Part shown: in pieces, positions 1-20,100 of the stretch | How positions within the stretch are numbered: the stretch's first letter is position 1 | How the letters are laid out: every line of letters starts with the position of its first letter | Assembly: GCF_032854445.1 (NCBI RefSeq) | Contig: NC_088303.1 | Span: forward strand, 33,239,501 to 33,303,500 | Source of the DNA: Liolophura sinensis | Taxonomy: Eukaryota; Mollusca; Polyplacophora; Chitonida; Chitonidae | DNA length: 64,000 nucleotides | Direction of reading: 5' to 3' | Position numbers and translations under genes: made by a program | The notes under the pieces: generated by a model | Seen by the model: the letters and a program-made list of their open reading frames with translations, nothing else | What the model was told of the DNA's origin: nothing | The model's database searches: none

Positions 1-486
1 GTGCCCCTTGGCTGCAGGTGTGCTATGGTGTCCAGAACCAAGGAGAAGCAAGCTGTGCCCCTTGGCTGCAGGTGTGCTATGGTGTCCAGAACCAAGGGGA
101 AGCAAGCAGTGCCCCTTGGCTGCAGGTGTGTTATGGTGTCCAGAACCAAGAAGAAGCAAGCAGTGCCCCTTGGCTGCAGGTGTGCTATGGTGTCCAGAAC
201 CAAGGAGAAGCAAGCTGTGCCCCTTGGCTGCAGGTGTGCTATGGTGTCCAGAACCAAGGGGAAGCAAGCAGTGCCCCTTGGCTGCAGGTGTGTTATGGTG
301 TCCAGAACCAAGAAGAAGCAAGCAGTGCCCCTTGGCTGCAGGTGTGCTATGGTGTCCAGAACCAAGGAGAAGCAAGCAGTGCCCCTTGGCTGCAGGTGTG
401 CTATGGTGTCCAGAACCAAGGAGAAGCAAGCAGTGCCCCTTGGCTGCAGGTGTGCTATGGTGTCCAGAACCAAGGGACACACCTTT
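1..486. repeat. 54-bp minisatellite, 9 units
   Basis: Nine near-identical 54-bp units start at 1, 55, 109, 163, 217, 271, 325, 379 and 433; each begins gtgccccttggctgcagg. Units 1-3 and 4-6 repeat as a triplet, so there is a 162-bp higher-order period. Because 54 is a multiple of 3 and the unit has no stop in the three plus frames, all three frames are open through the array, which argues against coding rather than for it. The array probably continues left of the window. Downstream flank up to about 574 is unremarkable. Confidence 0.95.
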
Positions 487-579: not shown

Positions 580-1010
580 TGCTAGCCGAAGCCCTTGGCT
601 CAGAGATTCCTGAGCCAGGTGACAGATCTAAGTCCTCCAAACTAGCAGTAATGTTGTGAACCACGAGAGATTTGTGTCATCAAAAAACCTCCTGGGGGAG
701 CCGTCCCTGTCTTTATCCGTCTTGGGTCAGGGCAGGTATGTGTCACCAAAGATCTTGTGGATGAGCCACATGTACATATAGTAGCAGACCTTGGTTCCTT
801 GGTTCTTGAGCAGAGGAACAGATCTGTGTCGTCAAACACTTCCTGGAAGAGCTACGGTAACAGCAGGCCTGGGCCCATTCTCTCTTGGGCCAGAGACTGG
901 TATTTGTCATCAAAAACCTTCTGGAGGAGAATCCCTTGGCTCTAAGTGTCCTGAGCCTGGGACAGGTCTGTATAGTTAAACATTCCCTGGAGGAGCCTGC
1001 ACTGTATGAG
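580..1010. repeat. Decayed tandem repeat, about 65-85 bp units
   Basis: Five diverged copies of a motif like 'tctgtgtcatcaaacacttc' followed by 'ctggaggagcc' begin near 669, 735, 821, 899 and 965. They are interleaved with 'cttggg..agagac'-type segments. Spacing is irregular, as expected for an old tandem array. The short ORFs crossing it on both strands look like no protein family I know. Confidence 0.6.
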
Positions 1011-1674
1011 CTGGTCAGGGTCACTGGGCATTGTGTACGCCCCAGAAGAACCAAGGTATACAAAGCTACAACTGTTAAGGATAATAGATGAATAAAGATC
1101 CAATACGTACCAATAATGACTCATCTCCGTCCATATCGTACACGGATATCTGTATCTATACAAACACCATTCCAAAACATCTACATGCAAACAAACCCTA
1201 ATCCATATGAACTGCTTATTCACACCCAAAAGCATGCCGCATGTATATGTACCATTGCACTCCCCCCAATCCAAACCACAGAATGAAGCATGGCCAAATC
1301 TGTATCATGTATATGTGAGTATCAATACTCAATACAGATCCGAACCTACACGAGCATCAAAGAATTACCGTCACATAAAAATCAGTGAGCTAGACTACCT
1401 GACCAATCAACAAACAAGCAAACATGAGCTTGTGAAACCTCTCAAAGTTTATCCCTGTACATACACAAATGGCATATACCTTGCACCCACTAAAGGAAAC
1501 AAAAAAAATAATAAAACCCACTGACTTAAGTATATTTTTTCCTCTCTCTGACAAGTCCTTGATTTGTTGCATAGTATGTATGTACAAGGTACATGTACAG
1601 TAAATGACCTAATGTGTTGCTTAAAAAAAAAAGGTAATTTTAATGTCCCAAACATTACTTTTAGTGCTGAAAAT
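1011..1674. other. Downstream flank of SMG8, no gene seen
   Basis: AT-rich sequence. Only short ORFs without recognisable protein character cross it. Part of it (about 1640 upward) may be SMG8 3' UTR if the ATTAAA at 1639-1644 is used. Confidence 0.4.
1639..1644 (-). other. Candidate SMG8 poly(A) signal (ATTAAA)
   Basis: The minus strand reads ATTAAA here, about 457 nt past the SMG8 stop codon. I found no AATAAA on the minus strand between it and the stop. Using it would place the antisense SINE at 1688-1950 inside the 3' UTR. This is weak evidence by itself. Confidence 0.25.
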
Positions 1675-2100: not shown

Positions 2101-5100
2101 TCAAGGATACGGAAGTCGTATAACCCAGATAGCCCCAGCGGTGAGCTCTATGGGACCTGTGCCCGGGTGGAAGACCGGGCAGGGAGGAGGGCATGGTCTG
2201 ACCTTGGGGTCTACACTGATAGAGAGAGGCCCCTCAGGGGTGACCACAAACACGCGCATCAGCTGAGCCATGAACCCCTTAGAGCTTCTACAACACACAG
2301 GCACAGACACAGATTGGTAGTTAATCAAGGCTGCATATAAAACAGTACAACATTATTTGAACATCAGAGTAAAGAAACCTATTAGAATCCTGATACCAGA
2401 CATCTGTAATATTTATAAAACACTATATGTATTATTAATGTTATTTAATAAATTTGTAGATTTCCTCGCTCTCACATCTTGTGGGGATTGGTGATGATAA
2501 TGGGTTGACGATGCCCATGCGGCCCTGTGCACGTTGAGGAAGACTGACATCACTTGTCTGACACCCCCAACATGGTGTATTTATGTGTACATCGCATGTG
2601 GTAAAGTTAGTCAGCGACTTCAGTCAGTAAACGTTGGTGATTCCTCTATCCATAAAACTGACAGCCATGTATCAGAGAAATATTCTTGGGTATAACATTA
2701 AACAGCAATCCACTAAATAAATTTCCTTCCAGTTTTCTTGAATTCATAGTCCACTATAGTTTTTCTCAAAAAAGACAGTAACCAAATGAATGACGGTCAA
2801 ATATAATCATATAAATAAATAAATATGGTGGAGCTACATTCTTAATAACTTTTAAAACGTTCAGTTTCATGTTTGTCTTTATTTACTCGACTGGAGATTA
2901 AAAACGTATTAAAAATGTTTCCCTTTAAATAGTGGCAATAAGGCTTTAATATAGACTGGGGAAACTGGGCAGAACCTGGAGGAAACCATTATCTTAAGCC
3001 AGGCACCTGACAAACCTTTTGAGACAAAGTTACAGCTGAACTAGCCGGAGCTTGAGTCAACAGACAACTTAGCCACAAAGGTACAACAAGGGCCACTGAA
3101 GGCCCCTATAATATCTTTAAATTCCTGACCCAAGATGATGGAAATGCTGAACAATACCATCACCCTTACCTGCATGGGGCCTCCGTGGCTCAGTCGGTTA
3201 GCGCACTAGCGCAGCGTAATGACCCAGAAGCCTCTCAACAATGCGGTCGCTGTGAGTTCAAGTCCAGCTCATGCTGGCTTCCTCTCCGGCCGTATGTGGG
3301 AAGGTCTGCCAGCAACCTGTGGATGGTCGTGGGTTTCCCCCGGGCTCTGCCCGGTTTCCTCCCACCATAATGCTGGCCCCCGTCATATAAGTGAAATATT
3401 CTTGAGTACGGCGTAAAACATCAATCAAATAAATAAATAAATAAATAACCCTTACCTGCAATGACAGGGGCAATACAGTGGCATGTCCATGCTCAGCAAC
3501 TTGTTAGCATTGTCCTGCGGTAACAGAATGCATAAGATTTTTCAGATATTGTAATTCTTCAACCCTTTTACATATTCGCACGGTGCCTATTGAAGCCTCT
3601 TCTGATGGCATTATTCTTTGCTGGCTGATAACATCATGCTTTTCGTCAATCCAACCAATTTAAGTTTGTCTCTAAAATCAAATTCAGAAGGTGCATAACT
3701 CGCACTGAATGCTACATTTTCATATCTGAAAAAGTTGAGGTTGGGCATTGAGCAATACCCACAGTAACTTCATGGAAGATTTGACCAGCCATAGTTCACG
3801 AAATCATGAAGTTATGTGTAATCACATAATAATGTCACATGATTTGTCACCAACTTAGTACAGCTGTGTGATTAGATGGTGAAACAAAGGGTACATGTGG
3901 ACAAAAATGCTAATGTCTACAATGTTTATCATTTAAGAAATATTAAGCTGTATGATTTTTCAGCATACCTTCACAGTACTTGTGTGGACACCTTCATGAT
4001 TTTCCATGGTCCACTACAGAAATATAATTCTGTATACCATACCTTCACAGTAATTGGGCTGGATACCGTATGATTTTCTCTGGTCCGCTACAGAAATATA
4101 ATTCTGTATACTATACCTTCACAGTACTTGTGCTGGATACCGTATGATTTTCTCTGGTCCGCTACAGGAATATAATTCTGTATACTATACCTTCACAGTA
4201 CTTGTGCTGGATACCGTATGATTTTCTCTGGTCCGCTACAGGAATATAATTCTGTATACTATACCTTCACAGTACTTGTGATGGATACCGTATGATTTTC
4301 TCTGGTCCACTACAGGAATATAATTCTGTATACCATACCTTCACAGTAATTGGGCTGGATACCGTATGATTTTCTCTGGTCCGCTACAGAAATATAATTC
4401 TGTATACTATACCTTCACAGTACTTGTGCTGGATACCGTATGATTTTCTCTGGTCCGCTACAGAAATATAATTCTGTATACTATACCTTCACAGTAATTG
4501 TGCTGGATACCGTATGATTTTCTCTGGTCCGCTACAGAAATATAATTCTGTATACCATACCTTCACAGTACTTGTGCTGGATACCGTATGATTTTCTCTG
4601 GTCCGCTACAGAAATATAATTCTGTATACCATACCTTCACAGTAATTGGGCTGGATACCGTATGATTTTCTCTGGTCCGCTACAGAAATATAATTCTGTA
4701 TACCATACCTTCACAGTAATTGTGCTGGATACCGTATGATTTTCTCTGGTCCACTACAGAAATATAATTCTGTATACCATACCTTCACAGTAATTGTGCT
4801 GGATACCGTATGATTTTCTCTGGTCCACTACAGGAATATAATTCTGTATACCATACCTTCACAGTAATTGGGCTGGATACCGTATGATTTTCTCTGGTCC
4901 GCTACAGAAATATAATTCTGTATACCATACCTTCACAGTAATTGGGCTGGATACCGTATGATTTTCTCTGGTCCACTACAGGAATATAATTCTGTATACT
5001 ATACCTTCACAGTAATTGTGCTGGATACCGTATGATTTTCTCTGGTCCACTACAGAAATATAATTCTGTATACTATACCTTCACAGTAATTGTGCTGGAT

Positions 5101-8100
5101 ACCGTATGATTTTCTCTGGTCCACTACAGGAATATAATTCTGTATACTATACCTTCACAGTACTTGTGATGGATACCGTATGATTTTCTCTGGTCCACTA
5201 CAGAAATATAATTCTGTATACCATACCTTCACAGTAATTGTGCTGGATACCGTATGATTTTCTCTGGCCCGCTACAGGAATATAATTCTGTATACTATAC
5301 CTTCACAGTAATTGGGCTGGATACCATATGATTTTCTCTGGTCCACTACAGAAATATAATTCTGTATACCATACCTTCACAGTAATTGTGCTGGATACCG
5401 TATGATTTTCTCTGGTCCACTACAGGAATATAATTCTGTATACCATACCTTCACAGTAATTGTGCTGGATACCGTATGATTTTCTCTGGTCCACTACAGA
5501 AATATAATTCTGTATACCATACCTTCACAGTAATTGTGCTGGATACCGTATGATTTTCTCTGGTCCACTACAGGAATATAATTCTGTATACCATACCTTC
5601 ACAGTAATTGTGCTGGATACCGTATGATTTTCTCTGGTCCACTACAGAAATATAATTCTGTATACCATACCTTCACAGTAATTGGGCTGGATACCATATG
5701 ATTTTCTCTGGTCCACTACAGGAATATAATTCTGTATACTATACCTTCACAGTAATTGTGCTGGATACCGTATGATTTTCTCTGGTCCACTACAGAAATA
5801 TAATTCTGTATACCATACCTTCACAGTAATTGTGCTGGATACCGTATGATTTTCTCTGGTCCACTACAGGAATATAATTCTGTATACTATACCTTCACAG
5901 TACTTGTGATGGATACCGTATGATTTTCTCTGGTCCACTACAGAAATATAATTCTGTATACCATACCTTCACAGTAATTGTGCTGGATACCGTATGATTT
6001 TCTCTGGCCCGCTACAGGAATATAATTCTGTATACTATACCTTCACAGTAATTGGGCTGGATACCGTATGATTTTCTCTGGTCCACTACAGAAATATAAT
6101 TCTGTATACCATACCTTCACAGTAATTGTGCTGGATACCGTATGATTTTCTCTGGTCCACTACAGGAATATAATTCTGTATACCATACCTTCACAGTAAT
6201 TGGGCTGGATACCATATGATTTTCTCTGGTCCACTACAGAAATATAATTCTGTATACCATACCTTCACAGTAATTGGGCTGGATACCATATGATTTTCTC
6301 TGGTCCACTACAGGAATATAATTCTGTATACTATACCTTCACAGTAATTGGGCTGGATACCATTTGATTTTTTCTGATCCACTACAGGAATATAATTTTT
6401 TATACTACGTGTGCTTGATACCGTATGATTTTCTCTGGTCTGCTACAGAAATATAATTCTGTAAAGTATACCTCCACAGTACTAGTGCTAGATACCGTAT
6501 GATTTTCTCTTATACACTATAGAAAAGTGATTTTTTATACTGTACATGTACCTTCACAGTACTTGTACTGGACACCTTGATGATTTTCTCTGGTCCGCTA
6601 CAGAAATATAATTCTGTATACTATACCTTCACAGTACTTGTGCTGGATACCAAATGATTTTCTCTTATCCACTATAGGAGAGTGATTTTTTATACCGTAA
6701 ATGTACCTTCACAGTACTTGTACTGGACACCTTGATAATTTTTTCTGGTCCGCTACAGAAGAACCTGTGACCTCTTGGACATTCATATTCCATCCCCAGG
6801 TAAGCCCTCAGAGTTGTCTCGCTGGCTTCTGGGAAAACAGTTAGCGGGTGTTGTTCTACATATATAAATATACATGTATGTATTTTCTTTTGTTGTTTAA
6901 GAAGAATTTTTGTCTTGCATACAATGGTGGTCAGCTTCACTGGGAAGCAGAGGGAAATAAGCCACTTGGGTCCAGTTTCATGAAGTGTACTTAGTGTTAA
7001 GTTGCCTTTAGCTAAGTGCACTTTATATTTCTACAACATACATTATTATGGTGCATAAGGACTTACTTAGCTAAGAGAGCGACATGAAACCAGCTCCAGC
7101 TTTCAGTTTTCAGCTAAGTTAATTAAAAATTTTTCCACATGTAATATGCAGATACATGTATGTACACGCTACTGGTGAAGAAAAAGGCCATCAATGTTAG
7201 TCTGAGCAATCCATCAATCATGCAACCTAGGTGGATCGCTTACTGTCTGGCCAAGGTCATCATATTGATTGATTTATTTATCTGATTGGTGTTTTATGCT
7301 GTACACAAGAATATTTCACTTATACGACAGCCAGCATTATGGTGGGAGGAAACCGGGCAGAGCCCAGGGAAAACCCATGGCAGACCTTCCCACATACGGC
7401 TGGAGAGGAAGCCAGCATGAGCTGGACTTGAACTCACAGCGACCGTATTGGTGAGAGACTCCTGGGTCATTACGCTGCGCTGGTGCGCTAACCAACTGAG
7501 CCACGGAGGCCCCAGTCATCGTATTGATGAAGAAATGAAACGCCGAAAGTGTCAGTGAAAAAGGGGCTTAATAAACCATTCATGTACATCTATTATGTTG
7601 AACTAATCAGTGGTCCTCGTGGATTCTATTACTTTGGAAGTTTATTACTTTTCACTCACAAACCCAAAAGAGTAGGGCATTAAAAACCCATCACTCAATC
7701 ATGGATGCTACCAATGATCTGACATTACCTTTCTGGGTGCGCCTCTGTTTGCCCTTCCTCATGACCCCTTCCCCGACCGTGGGCCACTTCTCCTTCTCCG
7801 CAGTGATCGGGATATCCCATGGCAGCAAGAAGTTACTCCCTGGAAGAAAGCCCTGCTGATCCAAGCCTACACACACAAATGAACAGAATAGATATAAAGT
7901 ACTCTTACTTTCTTTACTTGAGAAATAGTCAGCTCAGAAAGTCGTTGCATCATGTGACTAAACTGATCTTTAATCAAAAAAAAATAAGAAGCTGGGGTAA
8001 CTCAAAACTCTTGGGTAAGACAGGGGTTTATGGGAAATTAAAGTTGAACATTCCCTGAAAGGGGCATAACTGTCATTATAACGTTCACACATATAAACCT

Positions 8101-11100: not shown

Positions 11101-14100
11101 TTCGGCAGACTGGACTGAGGCTCTGTAGTGGGGGTTTCACTGCTAGCAGGCTTGCCGGCCCGGATCTCAGACGTACTGGCATGGAACACAGGAAGTTCTA
11201 TGCGCTTCAATTCATGACAACACTGCTCTTCCAGCTGACAGTAAAAATCATAATTTGCAGCCTGAAAAAATACAATGACATGAGAGTCTGAAATTCAAAT
11301 CTATACATTTATTTATTTATTTGTTTAGATCATTGTCGAAATATTTAAACAGTTTTCACATGCACAATGGTGGTCAAATTGATGGGTGGAGGAAACAGGA
11401 GTGCCTGGGGTAAACCACTACACGTCAAACAGCATGTTTATTATGACCTTTATCAAAATTAAACTGTACAAACTGCAGAAGACCATAACTACTGTCAGTG
11501 AGTGAGTGTTCAGGGTTTAATGTCGTATTTAACAATTTTCCAGTCATATGACAACGAAGGAGTCATTGGTGTGCATGTAATATGCCTCCTTGCTGCAGGA
11601 CGGATGTCCCCCTCTCTTTTATCTAGTGTCGCTTAACTGAGACGATTTACTGAAGGCAAGTAAGCCACCCCGCCCGAGCCATTATACTAATAAGAGTCAA
11701 CCAGTCATTGCGCTATCTCCATAATGCAGAATGCCAAGCAAGGAAGGTACAACTTAATCTATTAAGGTCTTAGGTATGTGACCTAACCCAGGATTGACCC
11801 TGGATCTACCATACCCAAAGCGCACGCTCTCCATAACTACTGTCTAAGTTTAAGATGGGTGATTACCCATAATTCATGAAGCATAGAGAAAGTTATCCTT
11901 TCCATCCTTCATGGGAGCAATATTTATGCTATTCAACCTAGAATAGTCAATATTATAATTGGTATGTATTTTTTGACAATACAATGTGTATTTGAACAGT
12001 TTATGCACCATTTTTTAGCCATGAGCCCAAACTGAACTCAAAATGAAACATTACGAAACACAAGTTTCCAGGTGTAAATTCCAAAATTTAATAACAGGAG
12101 TGATTTTTAACTAAAATGTGAAATATCACAATTATCAACGAAGGAAATTTCCGATATTTCATCTTTATGTAAAACCAAAAAAACAATGTTTCTCAAGCAT
12201 AGCACTGACCTTGTGATCAAAGGGATCCTCCCTATCAGCCTGTGTCTGCCCACAATTACAGGAGGCTCTCGTCTTGAACTGACTACAATGGGGCATCTCC
12301 TCCAGGTCACCCTCAGTGCTCTCCCCTGGCGCACTATGTAACTATAGCAACGAGAAACAGAAACAGGCAGAATATTACCTCTTATTATACACCTTCAAAG
12401 TTTGCCTACCTGTTAACTTTGTGCCAATCGTCTCCCATTAGCAACTCTCATATTGCACGTTGCCATTAGCAACATGACGTCATTCAATGAACCGTATCTT
12501 TTAACTGTGTCCAATTGTCTCGCATGTACTTACCACTGCAGATAGCCATAAGCAACTCTCATATATTGCACATCGCCATTAGCAACTCTCATATTGCACA
12601 TCGCCATTAGCAACTCTCATATTGCACATCGCCATTAGCAACTCTCATATCGCACATCGCCATTAGCAACTCTCGTATTGCACATCGCCATTAGCAACTC
12701 TTATATTGCACATCGCCATTGCCAACTCTCATATTGCACATCACCATTAGCAACTCTCATATTGCACATCGCAATGCAACAATAGAACTCGTAGAACACA
12801 ATAAAGCAGATAACAGTCTAGATGAGCGGGTAACTGTAAGCGGGTTACCAATATAAGCAACTGATTAAGTGTGGAAAATCACCCTGTTTACAAACGGACC
12901 CTTTGATTTGTTTGTTGGGTTAACCCTTCGAAGTGTCCAGACAGTTTGTAGTTACTCACCCTGTTAACACAGTGGTTGCCAGTCAAGCTTATTGCCTCAC
13001 ACAACTGATGACCATTCTTCCACCATTTCTCACAGGCCTCCTCCAGCTGTACCAAGTACTTCTTGAAGCAAGGTCCCCGAGCATGCTGACAAAACACGCG
13101 CCTAGCCTGAGCCAGCTGTGAACACATCAGTATTTTTAGTGCTTAAACCACCTTAATGGAAAAGGGCAAAACTATTCACACAGGTCATTTTCAAGATGTG
13201 TGAAAACATAATGCTTTCATCTGTAACCCTTTCATATTGCATTCTTTCTTCATAGGTTGAGTAAAACAGAAAGTGTTACTCAGAGTGTAAAATAATCACA
13301 GCAGAGAAAACTTTTTTTTTTTTCCTTTTTGTTTTGTTTTAAATTTTAGATTGTTAGGTCAAGATTACAACAAGCAAGGAAGACTTTTCACAAAAAGTAC
13401 ACTCAATAGCTATTTATAATCTAAATGTTCACACCCACGTTCTTGAAACTGAGTATTTATGAAACTCTACCTGTGGAAAGAAAATTTGATACTTTAATAC
13501 CAGTGTCCATGGATACTTACAAATATAAAATTAGCTTGTAAAGGCAGCATGATCAATCCAAAAATTTTTTAAAATACACCCCTTGATTGTAGGGTGTCTG
13601 GCCATAGAAATTTCATCAATTAAAGAACAAATTACTCACCAAATAAATTATTGATTTGGTTGGTATTTCATGCCGTACTCAAAAATATTTCACTTATGCG
13701 ACAACAACCAGCATTACGGTGGACGTAAAATGGGCAGAGCCTGGGGAGAATCCGACGGCCCACCTCAGAGGTTTTCAAATAGAACACATCTTTAACCTCT
13801 TGCATTATGGAGGACATCTATGGTATGGTTTTAATTAAGCAGTACTGGTACCTTGCTCTGGTGATAAGACTCTGTGTAGTGTGGGGGAAGTCCATCCTGA
13901 TAGGTGCTCTCTGCCACAGGTAAAACTTTGCTACAACGACTACAATATCAAACACATCACAATCAGTACATCAGCCATCACAGCTTAATACATCAACAAC
14001 TTCCACTTTACAGAACAGTCCCACATATCATCCACAAGAAACCAGAGTAAAAATATTTATTACAGAATTATTCCAAAAAGAAGAAGTTAACATGATTAAA

Positions 14101-17100: not shown

Positions 17101-20100
17101 CTTTCTATTGACATGTCTCAAAAGTCAAGATGTATACAAGCAAGTATTTCACACTGTTTTGACTTCAAATTTCCCAGTGCATGAACAAAAGATGAACATG
17201 AATTCTTACATCAAACTCAAAGACGAGGAGGCCGACGGGGAACTACCTATCTCATCAGCATTTCACTTATATCATACGACTGAAATAAGTGACCTACAAG
17301 CAGGGGGCATCACTGAACAAGGTCCCTTGGTTTTCAGCCACAGCCATGGGTTTGTCAATGACTGCTAAGCTGGTTGCTTGTTCCCAGTAGGTTCATTCAC
17401 GAGGTTATTCCCAAAAATTTTGGAATACTGACACAAAATATACATAAAACAGACAATTTTGTGAGAGACATAAAATATGTCTCAAAAAAGGAACATTTTT
17501 GGTGGTTCAATGACAATCTTTGTTTTATGAGTTACTTTATTCTTTAAGTTACTAAGCAAAATAACTTTTATTCTATTCATCTAGTAACACATAAAACCAG
17601 CACGTACCTAATATTGGTAATGGTTCTAGCCTTTCTGAGTAGACTGTAGATCTGGTCTTCGATAGCATGCTGATGACGTCGTACTGAGGGCCCTCTCTAT
17701 AGTATAATAATACAGCCATGTGTTGATACATATGTTCAAAACTTTTATTTTCTTTAAAAAACAAAATATTTAGCACAACGAACAATCATAAAAACAACTA
17801 AACACATGATTATTTATATATTTTCACACATAACATGCAAAGCGTTCCTGGTAAAACTTTTTTTTTGAAAGCTGTACACCCTTACTAACTATAGATTCTG
17901 TTGCATTCACTTCAGAATGGTTGGTAGGGCGTCAATCCTGGGTGGAGTCACACCTAAGACCTTAAAAGAGGAAGTTGTAACTTCCTCGCTAGGCGTTCAG
18001 CATAAAGGGGATAGGGCAATGACTGGTTGACCTGTATCAGTATAATGGCTCGGGCAGGACGGCTTACTTGCCGTCTCAGTGAAGCAGCACTAGATAACAG
18101 AGCTGTGGAAATCCGTCCTACATGCACTTTAAGGATTCATTCGTGGTCATATGACTGATAAATTGTTGAGTACGATGCTAAACCCCAAGCACTCACTCAT
18201 CCACTTCAGAGTGGACCTGTCCAAAAAAAAAAGAAGTCTAAAGTATCTTCTACCTGCCCCTGGGGCTTCCCTGGGTCACTCTCCAGTACACAGTCACTGA
18301 ACACGAACAGTACCCTCGGGGAGCAAGGGCGCCCAGCTGACACCCAGTCCTTGGGCAGAGCAAACTCACTCAGCACTTCTGACACAAAGGGCTGCCATTT
18401 CAGCCTAAAATCAGAATGTTTTCATGCGGCACAATACATGTACATGGTGAAACACCATTCAAGCAACAGTAAACTGTTCAAATCAGGACAATATCAGCAC
18501 AAAATTACCTAACGTGGGATAGCAGTAGATTTCTGAGTGTAAGTTTGAATAGCAAATGTGAAAATTTCATATCTTGCGAAGCTGAAGCTTCGGTATTCTA
18601 AACATTAAACTGGAACGTGAACAAATCAGCTCTAGATTATATTCAATATCATTCATCCAGGAAGACAAAATAATGTGTTAGGAAGAGCAGACACAGTATG
18701 ACATATAAACTCATTTATTTATTCATTTGACTGGTGTTTTACATCACATTCAAGAATATTTCTCACGATGGTGATCAGCATTATGGTGAGAGGAAACTGG
18801 GTAGAGCCCGACTGATACAAAGTATTAGAAACTAGCTTATGTATAAACCAAAGGTCACAAAGAGCCACCAGCTTTATATGTATGAGAAACCTGTCATCAA
18901 TCCAAAATGGCTTTTATTTATTTATTTATTTATTTGATTGGTGTTTTATGTCGTACTCAAGAATATTTCACTTATACAACGGCAGCCAGCATTATGATGG
19001 GAGGAAACCGGGCAGAGCCCAGGGAAAACCTACGACCATCCGCACGTTGCTGACAGACCTTCCCACGTAGGGCTAGAGAGGAAGACAGCATGAGCTGGAC
19101 TTGAACTCACAGCAACGGCATAAAGTGGCTTTTAAACACAGCGTTAAATGTGGTAAAATGGTCAGAAACATTGTATTTATTTGAGCAGCTCGGTTAACAC
19201 ACTGATTTACAGTTAAGCATCAGCAGTCCCCTGCAATGAAGCCATTCTTAAAACATTCTCTGTGGGGCGTAACCAAACCCTGTCACAAAAAACAGGGTCT
19301 GTTGGAGTGGAACATTCTTTTTTTTTCAATCCTGACTAATGAAAAAGATAGGAATTTTAAACAAATTAACATGGCAATTTTTTTAAAAAATGGTTTATTG
19401 ATATTCCAGTAAAAACTTTAGGGTAGAGCTCTTGTTTGGAGGGTCAGGGGGGTTTTGCCCAAAAAACATATTTGTAAGAAATGCCTGATGCATAATAATC
19501 TGCTCTGCCTGAAAGAGCACACACACATGTACCCAGATTTGCTTCCCACAAACTTAGAGCACATACCTGATGGTGTTGATAGAGTTAAACAGGTGTATAT
19601 AGGACACATCAAAGGTGGTACCTGGGTGGTTCAGCTGTTGGGGGTGAAAAGTAACAATCGTTATTTCTCCAGGATTACTTTTCAAGATCTAGACTTTTGT
19701 CCATGACTATATGAATTGTTAAGCCTGACTCTGAGAGTTCTATTGATTGGTGTTTTGAGGTTTGTTTGGAAGGTGAGATGATATCCTATTAGTACAGAAA
19801 GAACATACACACCTTTCAAAATTAGAAACCTTCACATGCTTATCAAATTGTCATTTGTGTAAACTCTCCAGTCAGTTCATATATACATCTAAGACAAATA
19901 AGAAAATCCACTCACCAACACTAAATGTGACACAGAAAACAGGAAGAGTAGAGTCTTGGCATGCTGAAGATCTTCTGTCAACAGGTTACTGTGGATATCC
20001 TGAGAATATAAGCAATTCAGTTGTTACTGTAATAGTACGTTTACAAATTCCAGAATGCTTAGAGAAAGATTTGTTTCCCCTGTTCACCATTGCTTGTCAC

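Follow-up and report, generated by a model that had tools for sequence, protein, structure and literature searches.

We analysed a 64,000-nucleotide stretch of the genome of the chiton Liolophura sinensis (contig NC_088303.1, positions 33,239,501 to 33,303,500; hereafter the window), whose minus strand encodes SMG8. One SMG8 intron is largely taken up by a tandem array, and our sequence comparisons support the derivation of this array from the junction between the preceding coding exon and the intron itself, splice donor included. The assembly was published under the name Liolophura japonica (609.5 Mb, 632 scaffolds, N50 37,343,639; PMC11068029), and a correction now names the animal behind it L. 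sinensis (PMC12441733).

A Pfam profile search placed ten stretches matching PF10220 (Smg8_Smg9) on the minus strand, from window position 18409 down to 2107. Three features are needed at the outset (a slash marks a splice boundary):

6707..6828, minus strand: 122-nt exon of SMG8, parent of the array; acceptor TTTTCCCAG/AAGCC, donor AAG/GTACAT; placed by PF10220, alignment to human SMG8 and splice context.
3515..6706, minus strand: array-bearing SMG8 intron, 3192 nt; donor and acceptor set by frame and alignment.
3953..6706, minus strand: tandem array, 37 copies of a unit made of exon end, donor and intron start, mostly 74 bp; low end approximate.

A preliminary description of this DNA had reported a 74-bp unit in about 38 copies at 3953-6766. 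Such an array is present: Tandem Repeats Finder returned a period of 74 at 3964-6405, with degenerate 80/81-bp and 155-bp periods reaching 6760, and when modules were cut at each exon-like start, 38 starts were obtained, representing the parent and 37 copies. The array fills about 86% of the intron. That the intron adjoins the parent exon and consists mostly of array also stood, its limits being corrected to 6706-3515. Counted from the parent, the modules are spaced by 81, 74, 81, 74 and 61 bp and then by 74 bp throughout, so that an 81/74 pair occurs twice beside the exon; the parental 81-bp module comprises 52 exon and 29 intron bases, and the 74-bp unit 51 and 23, respectively.

The exon end and the unit are related well beyond chance. 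The parent exon finishes with KIIKVSSTSTVK/GTACAT, and its last 54 bases align with the unit consensus at a score of 66, whereas 5000 Markov shuffles averaged 15.7 and never exceeded 31. The seed of the repeat is thus the final 52-54 nt of exon 6707..6828. Outside 3901-6850, the window holds no match to the unit better than E = 1. Polarity is given by the protein: human SMG8 reads FMCSGPDKVMKV where the chiton exon reads FFCSGPEKIIKV, and because the human gene carries the corresponding peptide, the exon is the ancestral, parental sequence. Furthermore, the 81-bp module joins the end of the exon to the start of its adjacent intron, as a tandem duplication spanning the junction would. Alignment, polarity and the 81-bp parental module all support the origin from exon end plus donor that had been suggested for the array. 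The reverse course, in which a pre-existing satellite donated the end of the exon, could draw on the existence of a second locus of the 74-bp unit (see below). We regard it as vanishingly improbable, given the peptide shared with human SMG8, the finding of just two loci in non-exhaustive searches, and a unit that is one exon base short and hence out of the SMG8 frame.

Two copies, at opposite ends of the array, bear on its history:

6523..6605, minus strand: a02 (u02), the most parent-like copy, with the same GTACAT donor as the parent.
3952..4019, minus strand: a37, the far-end copy; retains exon-like AAGGTGTCC, otherwise diverged and on a long branch; low end approximate.

The exon part of a02 (6605-6552, 54 nt) differs from the parent at two bases, both synonymous. 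The AAGGTGTCC of the exon persists in a02 and a37, and the inner copies mostly read ACGGTATCC or ATGGTATCC. Among 32 full-length units, 17 of the 74 positions are variable. The mean difference between 74-bp units was 2.4-2.9 at even lags from 2 to 12 versus 3.2-3.8 at odd lags from 1 to 13; at lag 14 it was 3.4, so the even-lag dip is absent there. Six of 22 pairs of units ten apart were identical. Together, the even-lag dip and the identical lag-10 pairs point to block duplication, both of dimers and of ten units at a time. With a short head-to-tail unit in 37 copies and concerted variation in dimer and ten-unit sub-blocks, the array has the character of a minisatellite or local satellite, and we read the variation among units as mostly reflecting shared descent.

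Identification of the true donor depends on the downstream gene model:

3456..3514, minus strand: 59-nt SMG8 exon that follows the intron, DNANKLLSMDMPLYCPCHC; acceptor TTACCGCAG/GAC, donor TGCAG/GTAAGG; from sequence reading and human alignment.
2111..2287, minus strand: SMG8 exon after the 59-nt exon; acceptor TTGTAG/AAGC, donor CC/GTATCCTT; from Pfam, human alignment and splice context.
942..1065, minus strand: final SMG8 coding exon, FVYLGSS...AQDT followed by the stop; from human alignment.

The 59-nt exon lies outside the Pfam matches and was located through a DMPLY motif common to human SMG8. When the four exons (6828-6707, 3514-3456, 2287-2111 and 1065-942) were joined, they matched residues 842-986 of human SMG8 in a single stretch (E 2.9e-34), with KVSSTSTVKDNANKLLSMDMPLY facing KVMGSGPKESALKALNSDMPLY and one one-residue gap in that part. 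This alignment fixes donor AAG/GTACAT at phase 0. We had considered that this donor, named in the preliminary description, was wrong and that ACG/GTATAA was used in its place, because AAG/GTACAT joined straight to exon 2287 breaks the frame. The idea was dropped because exon 3514-3456 restores both the frame and the human alignment; frame and human SMG8 then agree on GTACAT.

Several other features of this end of the gene were observed. Directly behind the donor of exon 3514-3456 lies a short interspersed element (SINE) at about 3177-3447 (window 3164-3460), assigned by eye to the tRNA type. It is flanked by a 13-bp duplication, ACCCTTACCTGCA, that doubles the donor TGCAG/GTAAGGGT of this exon. 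The last SMG8 coding intron (2110-1066, minus strand) looks U12-type, with donor CC/GTATCCTT and ATCCTTAAC shortly 5' of the acceptor TTGTAG/C, motifs that we take to be those of U12 introns. In self-BLAST, the terminal part of the final SMG8 exon, stop codon included, recurs in degenerate form in the sequence that follows it, within 480-970 on the minus strand (42 bases, 81%, E 1.9e-6).

The 74-bp unit occurs at one other place. On the same strand, some 525 kb from SMG8, eight units form a second array at an unrelated site (C9:32717700-32718311, equal to 4700-5311 of record L001). Searches of the 609,464,459 bases in 632 contigs, which were not exhaustive and skipped common words, matched an inner unit, a dispersed unit and the parent exon to SMG8 and this site only. 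A 23-base pattern allowed up to three mismatches found the same two loci and one isolated match on C1; the backward control gave four matches. A genome-wide satellite family with many loci is therefore not borne out by these non-exhaustive searches, which found two. The second array carries eight donors, starts and ends with GGTATCC, has both ends at one unit phase within 7 bases, and contains variants present inside the SMG8 array, for example CATCACAAG and CAGCCCAAT. A search with its flanks returned no second full copy of either. One flank gave nine short partial matches and the other three, of which the best covers 72 bases at 88% on C8. We read the second array as a probable multi-unit block transferred from SMG8, for which an extrachromosomal circle is suggested as one possible route.

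Either the size of the SMG8 array or the second array itself might be an artefact of assembly, and coverage was only 14x (PMC11068029). However, the HiFi reads of that study average 8,347 bp, which exceeds the array, so that single reads can span it. Moreover, only one of 31 successive pairs of full-length units is identical, and the second array has different flanks and private variants. An artefact is thus highly improbable.

At the joint between units there is an 18/20 palindrome, which may have helped the array to grow, although this is only a thought. In RNA and DNA folding, three units were no more stable than their shuffled versions (z -0.60 and -0.82), and two dispersed units gave z -1.46.

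The neighbourhood contains further tandem arrays. We surveyed those of period at least 20 and at least 2.9 copies in the window and in records L001 and L002, where exons are unannotated, so the survey is no census of exon-born arrays. Of its 14 rows, two belong to the SMG8 array; the match between its unit and the end of the parent exon has E 3.4e-13. Five of the remaining 12 (window 10421, 12537 and 27899; L001 7192; L002 4720) match elsewhere in their own record at E of 0.01 or below, and seven, among them the dispersed array at L001 4700-5311, have no match in theirs. Another SMG8 intron holds a 28-bp, 8.4-copy array at 12537-12772 with an extra partial copy at 12435-12473. Three more arrays, of 77, 49 and 69 bp, occupy L001 6961-8014, less than 3 kb from the dispersed 74-bp array. 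Just downstream of SMG8, a 54-bp array crosses the left edge of the window (window 1-475 and L002 4720-5000). Birth of this array from the last SMG8 exon was rejected, as its score of 20 was equalled by 305 of 2000 shuffles.

We then considered what the array presents to the splicing machinery. The GT of the donor is retained in 36 of the 37 copies and lost in one 61-nt copy, and all 36 have AG/GT. Thus, the dozens of decoy donors proposed earlier are present as sequence. They read GTATGG (19), GTATAG (14), GTACAT (1), GTATAC (1) and GTATGC (1); 33 of the 36 therefore show one of the two hexamers, GTATAG or GTATGG, that had been reported where the parent has GTACAT. Scores were computed with position tables for donors and acceptors and with pairing to the U1 5' end. 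The true donor was compared with eight other SMG8 donors, a set that includes the likely donor 18254 (table 0.6, U1 -8.0; not placed by alignment) and excludes the U12-like 2111 and the candidate 11048 (3.4). On the position table, the true donor scored 0.7, second lowest of the nine, the others ranging from 0.6 to 8.0; in silico pairing with U1 gave -5.6 kcal/mol, the weakest of the nine, versus -6.6 to -11.7. The copies scored 4.4 (GTATGG), 4.0 (GTATGC), 0.7 (GTACAT), 0.0 (GTATAG) and -0.7 (GTATAC) on the table, so that 20 of the 36 surpass the true donor. For U1 pairing, GTATGG gave -7.6, GTATAG -7.9 and the other three -5.6 to -5.8 kcal/mol; hence 33 copies pair at least 2 kcal/mol better than the true donor, and the remaining three equal it or nearly so. 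The two measures conflict on the 14 GTATAG copies, which fall below the true donor on the table and above it in pairing.

A transcript that fails to use the true donor would meet a stop before it reaches any decoy:

6665..6667, minus strand: in-frame stop TAA on read-through of exon 6828-6707 into the intron, before the first decoy (exon-like end 6627).

A stop codon with exon junctions downstream of it is the usual signal for nonsense-mediated decay (NMD). Because the TAA precedes the first decoy and exon junctions follow, the rule would apply to transcripts using array donors, and the earlier statement that these would contain stop codons is sound on paper. Premature polyadenylation, which had also been raised, finds no support in signals: neither AATAAA nor ATTAAA occurs in the 2742 bases of the array.

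These properties invite a regulatory interpretation, in which the array acts as a splicing brake: decoys would bind U1 in preference to the weak true donor, extend the exon or cause the intron to be held back, and lower SMG8 through NMD, perhaps as feedback. The 36 decoys, each preceded by a copy of the exonic context, the better U1 pairing of most, the table scores of 20, and the position of the stop all fit such a brake. In addition, depletion of NBAS raised human SMG8 mRNA (PMC3783168), and an additional donor can produce intron retention (PMC8706089). However, the passages cited from the former paper do not name SMG8 among the mRNAs raised on DHX34 depletion, and those from the latter describe the effects of decoy donors as context dependent. 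The 14 GTATAG copies and the single GTATAC copy lie below the true donor on the table, although their U1 pairing is as good or better, and the copy number is no sign of selection, given shared ancestry. The regulatory interpretation is coherent with the cited cases, none of which concerns this array. Splicing interference or NMD feedback from the array is possible as judged from sequence, whereas a brake as set out here seems unlikely. Its more elaborate form, a self-made, length-tunable rheostat in which 36 copy-number-variable decoys outbid the true donor and array length sets the share of SMG8 pre-mRNA that becomes NMD substrate, we consider very unlikely.

The copies also contain acceptor-like sites. 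In each donor-bearing copy, an AG lies 45 or 46 nt upstream of the donor and scores -3.3 to -5.2. Seven placed SMG8 acceptors score 1.5 to 4.9; among likely ones, 16999 scores 3.5, 16446 scores 6.4 and 13115 or 13106 scores -0.8 or 2.0, and acceptor 1065 of the U12-like intron scores -1.5. The likely real acceptor 18404, at -4.1, is as low as those of the array, and score alone therefore does not dismiss the latter. Thus, the earlier assertion that the decoys have no acceptors holds roughly, in that the AGs of the array are weaker than all seven placed acceptors, and fails in that every donor-bearing copy has one and 18404 is equally low. In 35 of the 36 copies, the AG and the donor enclose an open stretch of 45 nt that continues the frame of the phase-0 junction. 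One might therefore view the copies as a reservoir of cassette exons, each with acceptor TGTAG, 45 nt encoding 15 in-frame residues, and donor AAG/GT. Against the open frames and the precedent of 18404 stand the low scores of the array acceptors relative to the seven placed and most of the likely ones, and the inheritance of the open stretch from one ancestor, which makes it a single event with odds of about 1/6 by our own arithmetic. A cassette-exon role is therefore very improbable.

The explanation that we favour, and consider quite probable, is duplication of the junction followed by local growth, one dispersal, and neutral carriage of an array with decoy donors in its sequence. An 81-bp stretch that straddles the donor, with 52 bases of SMG8 exon and 29 of intron, would have been duplicated head to tail. 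One copy would then have lost one exon base and a net six intron bases, leaving the 74-bp unit, which presumably expanded by slippage or unequal exchange into the 37-copy minisatellite with its sub-blocks of two and ten units. About eight units, moved as a block, would have seeded the second small array some 525 kb away. The true donor is probably still used and the copies removed with the intron, the array being most likely carried neutrally. The copies may cause some mis-splicing, whose products would reach the stop codon and become NMD substrates. The preliminary description thus stands for the origin, the decoy sequences and the stop codon, holds roughly for the acceptors, and finds no support in signals for polyadenylation.

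Some observations weigh against parts of this explanation. On the unit tree, which took in seven of the eight dispersed units and has no starred branch, those seven do not form one group; a single group was not rejected (p-AU 0.066, approximately unbiased test), and the dispersed units clustered more than under random labelling, which gave as low a value in 3 of 500 shuffles. The order in which variants arose first and transfer came second is therefore not firm. Insertion of a circle is at most suggested, since a start and an end that agree in phase to within 7 bases would arise by accident with a chance of about 0.2 by our own arithmetic. As to neutrality, 35 of the 36 donor-bearing copies keep the 45-nt open stretch and 36 of 36 keep GT. 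Common descent accounts for both alike, and because the copies share ancestry, their intact donors are no sign of selection.

The significance of the locus is twofold. A tandem array still lies next to its coding parent, and the junction of origin, the intermediate forms and a dispersed daughter array can all be read. Furthermore, the intron constitutes a natural experiment on donor competition, in which one weak real site faces 36 decoys, 33 of them with better in silico U1 pairing, in a gene belonging to the very pathway that would destroy splicing errors. RNA-seq of this species has already been published (PMC11068029), so the question of donor competition is directly testable.

The ingredients of this locus have known counterparts. 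As in the intron-gain case of potato RdRp (PMC4974935), tandem duplication over a splice junction copied the splice signals together with their context; unlike that case, the chiton array has 37 copies within one intron, and a new functional intron between copies would be hypothetical. A review of satellites holds that any sequence could in theory seed satellite DNA, and names ribosomal DNA spacers and transposable elements (PMC5615363). Like the proto-satellites discussed there, the chiton array is head-to-tail, with a homogenised centre, divergent ends, dimers and a second locus; in contrast to them, its seed is the end of a coding exon plus donor that still lies beside the array, and two loci were found. 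Tandem donor-like sites in a gene of RNA metabolism, here in 36 copies, also recall the U11 snRNP-binding splicing enhancer (USSE) of SNRNP48 (U11-48K) and RNPC3 (U11/U12-65K), where such sites recruit U11 while remaining unspliced and close a negative loop, in SNRNP48 via a poison exon and NMD and in RNPC3 via an extended 3' untranslated region and nuclear retention (PMC5473595). The USSE is a U12-type repeat and has been tested experimentally, whereas the 36 sites in the chiton are U2-type and known from sequence alone. In the titles and abstract openings of the literature searched, we recognised no array born from an exon-donor junction. Thus, tandem duplication across splice junctions (PMC4974935) and growth of satellites from a seed sequence (PMC5615363) are known kinds of event; what appears to be new is a large array that grew from the donor of a coding exon, remains next to that exon and has a dispersed daughter.

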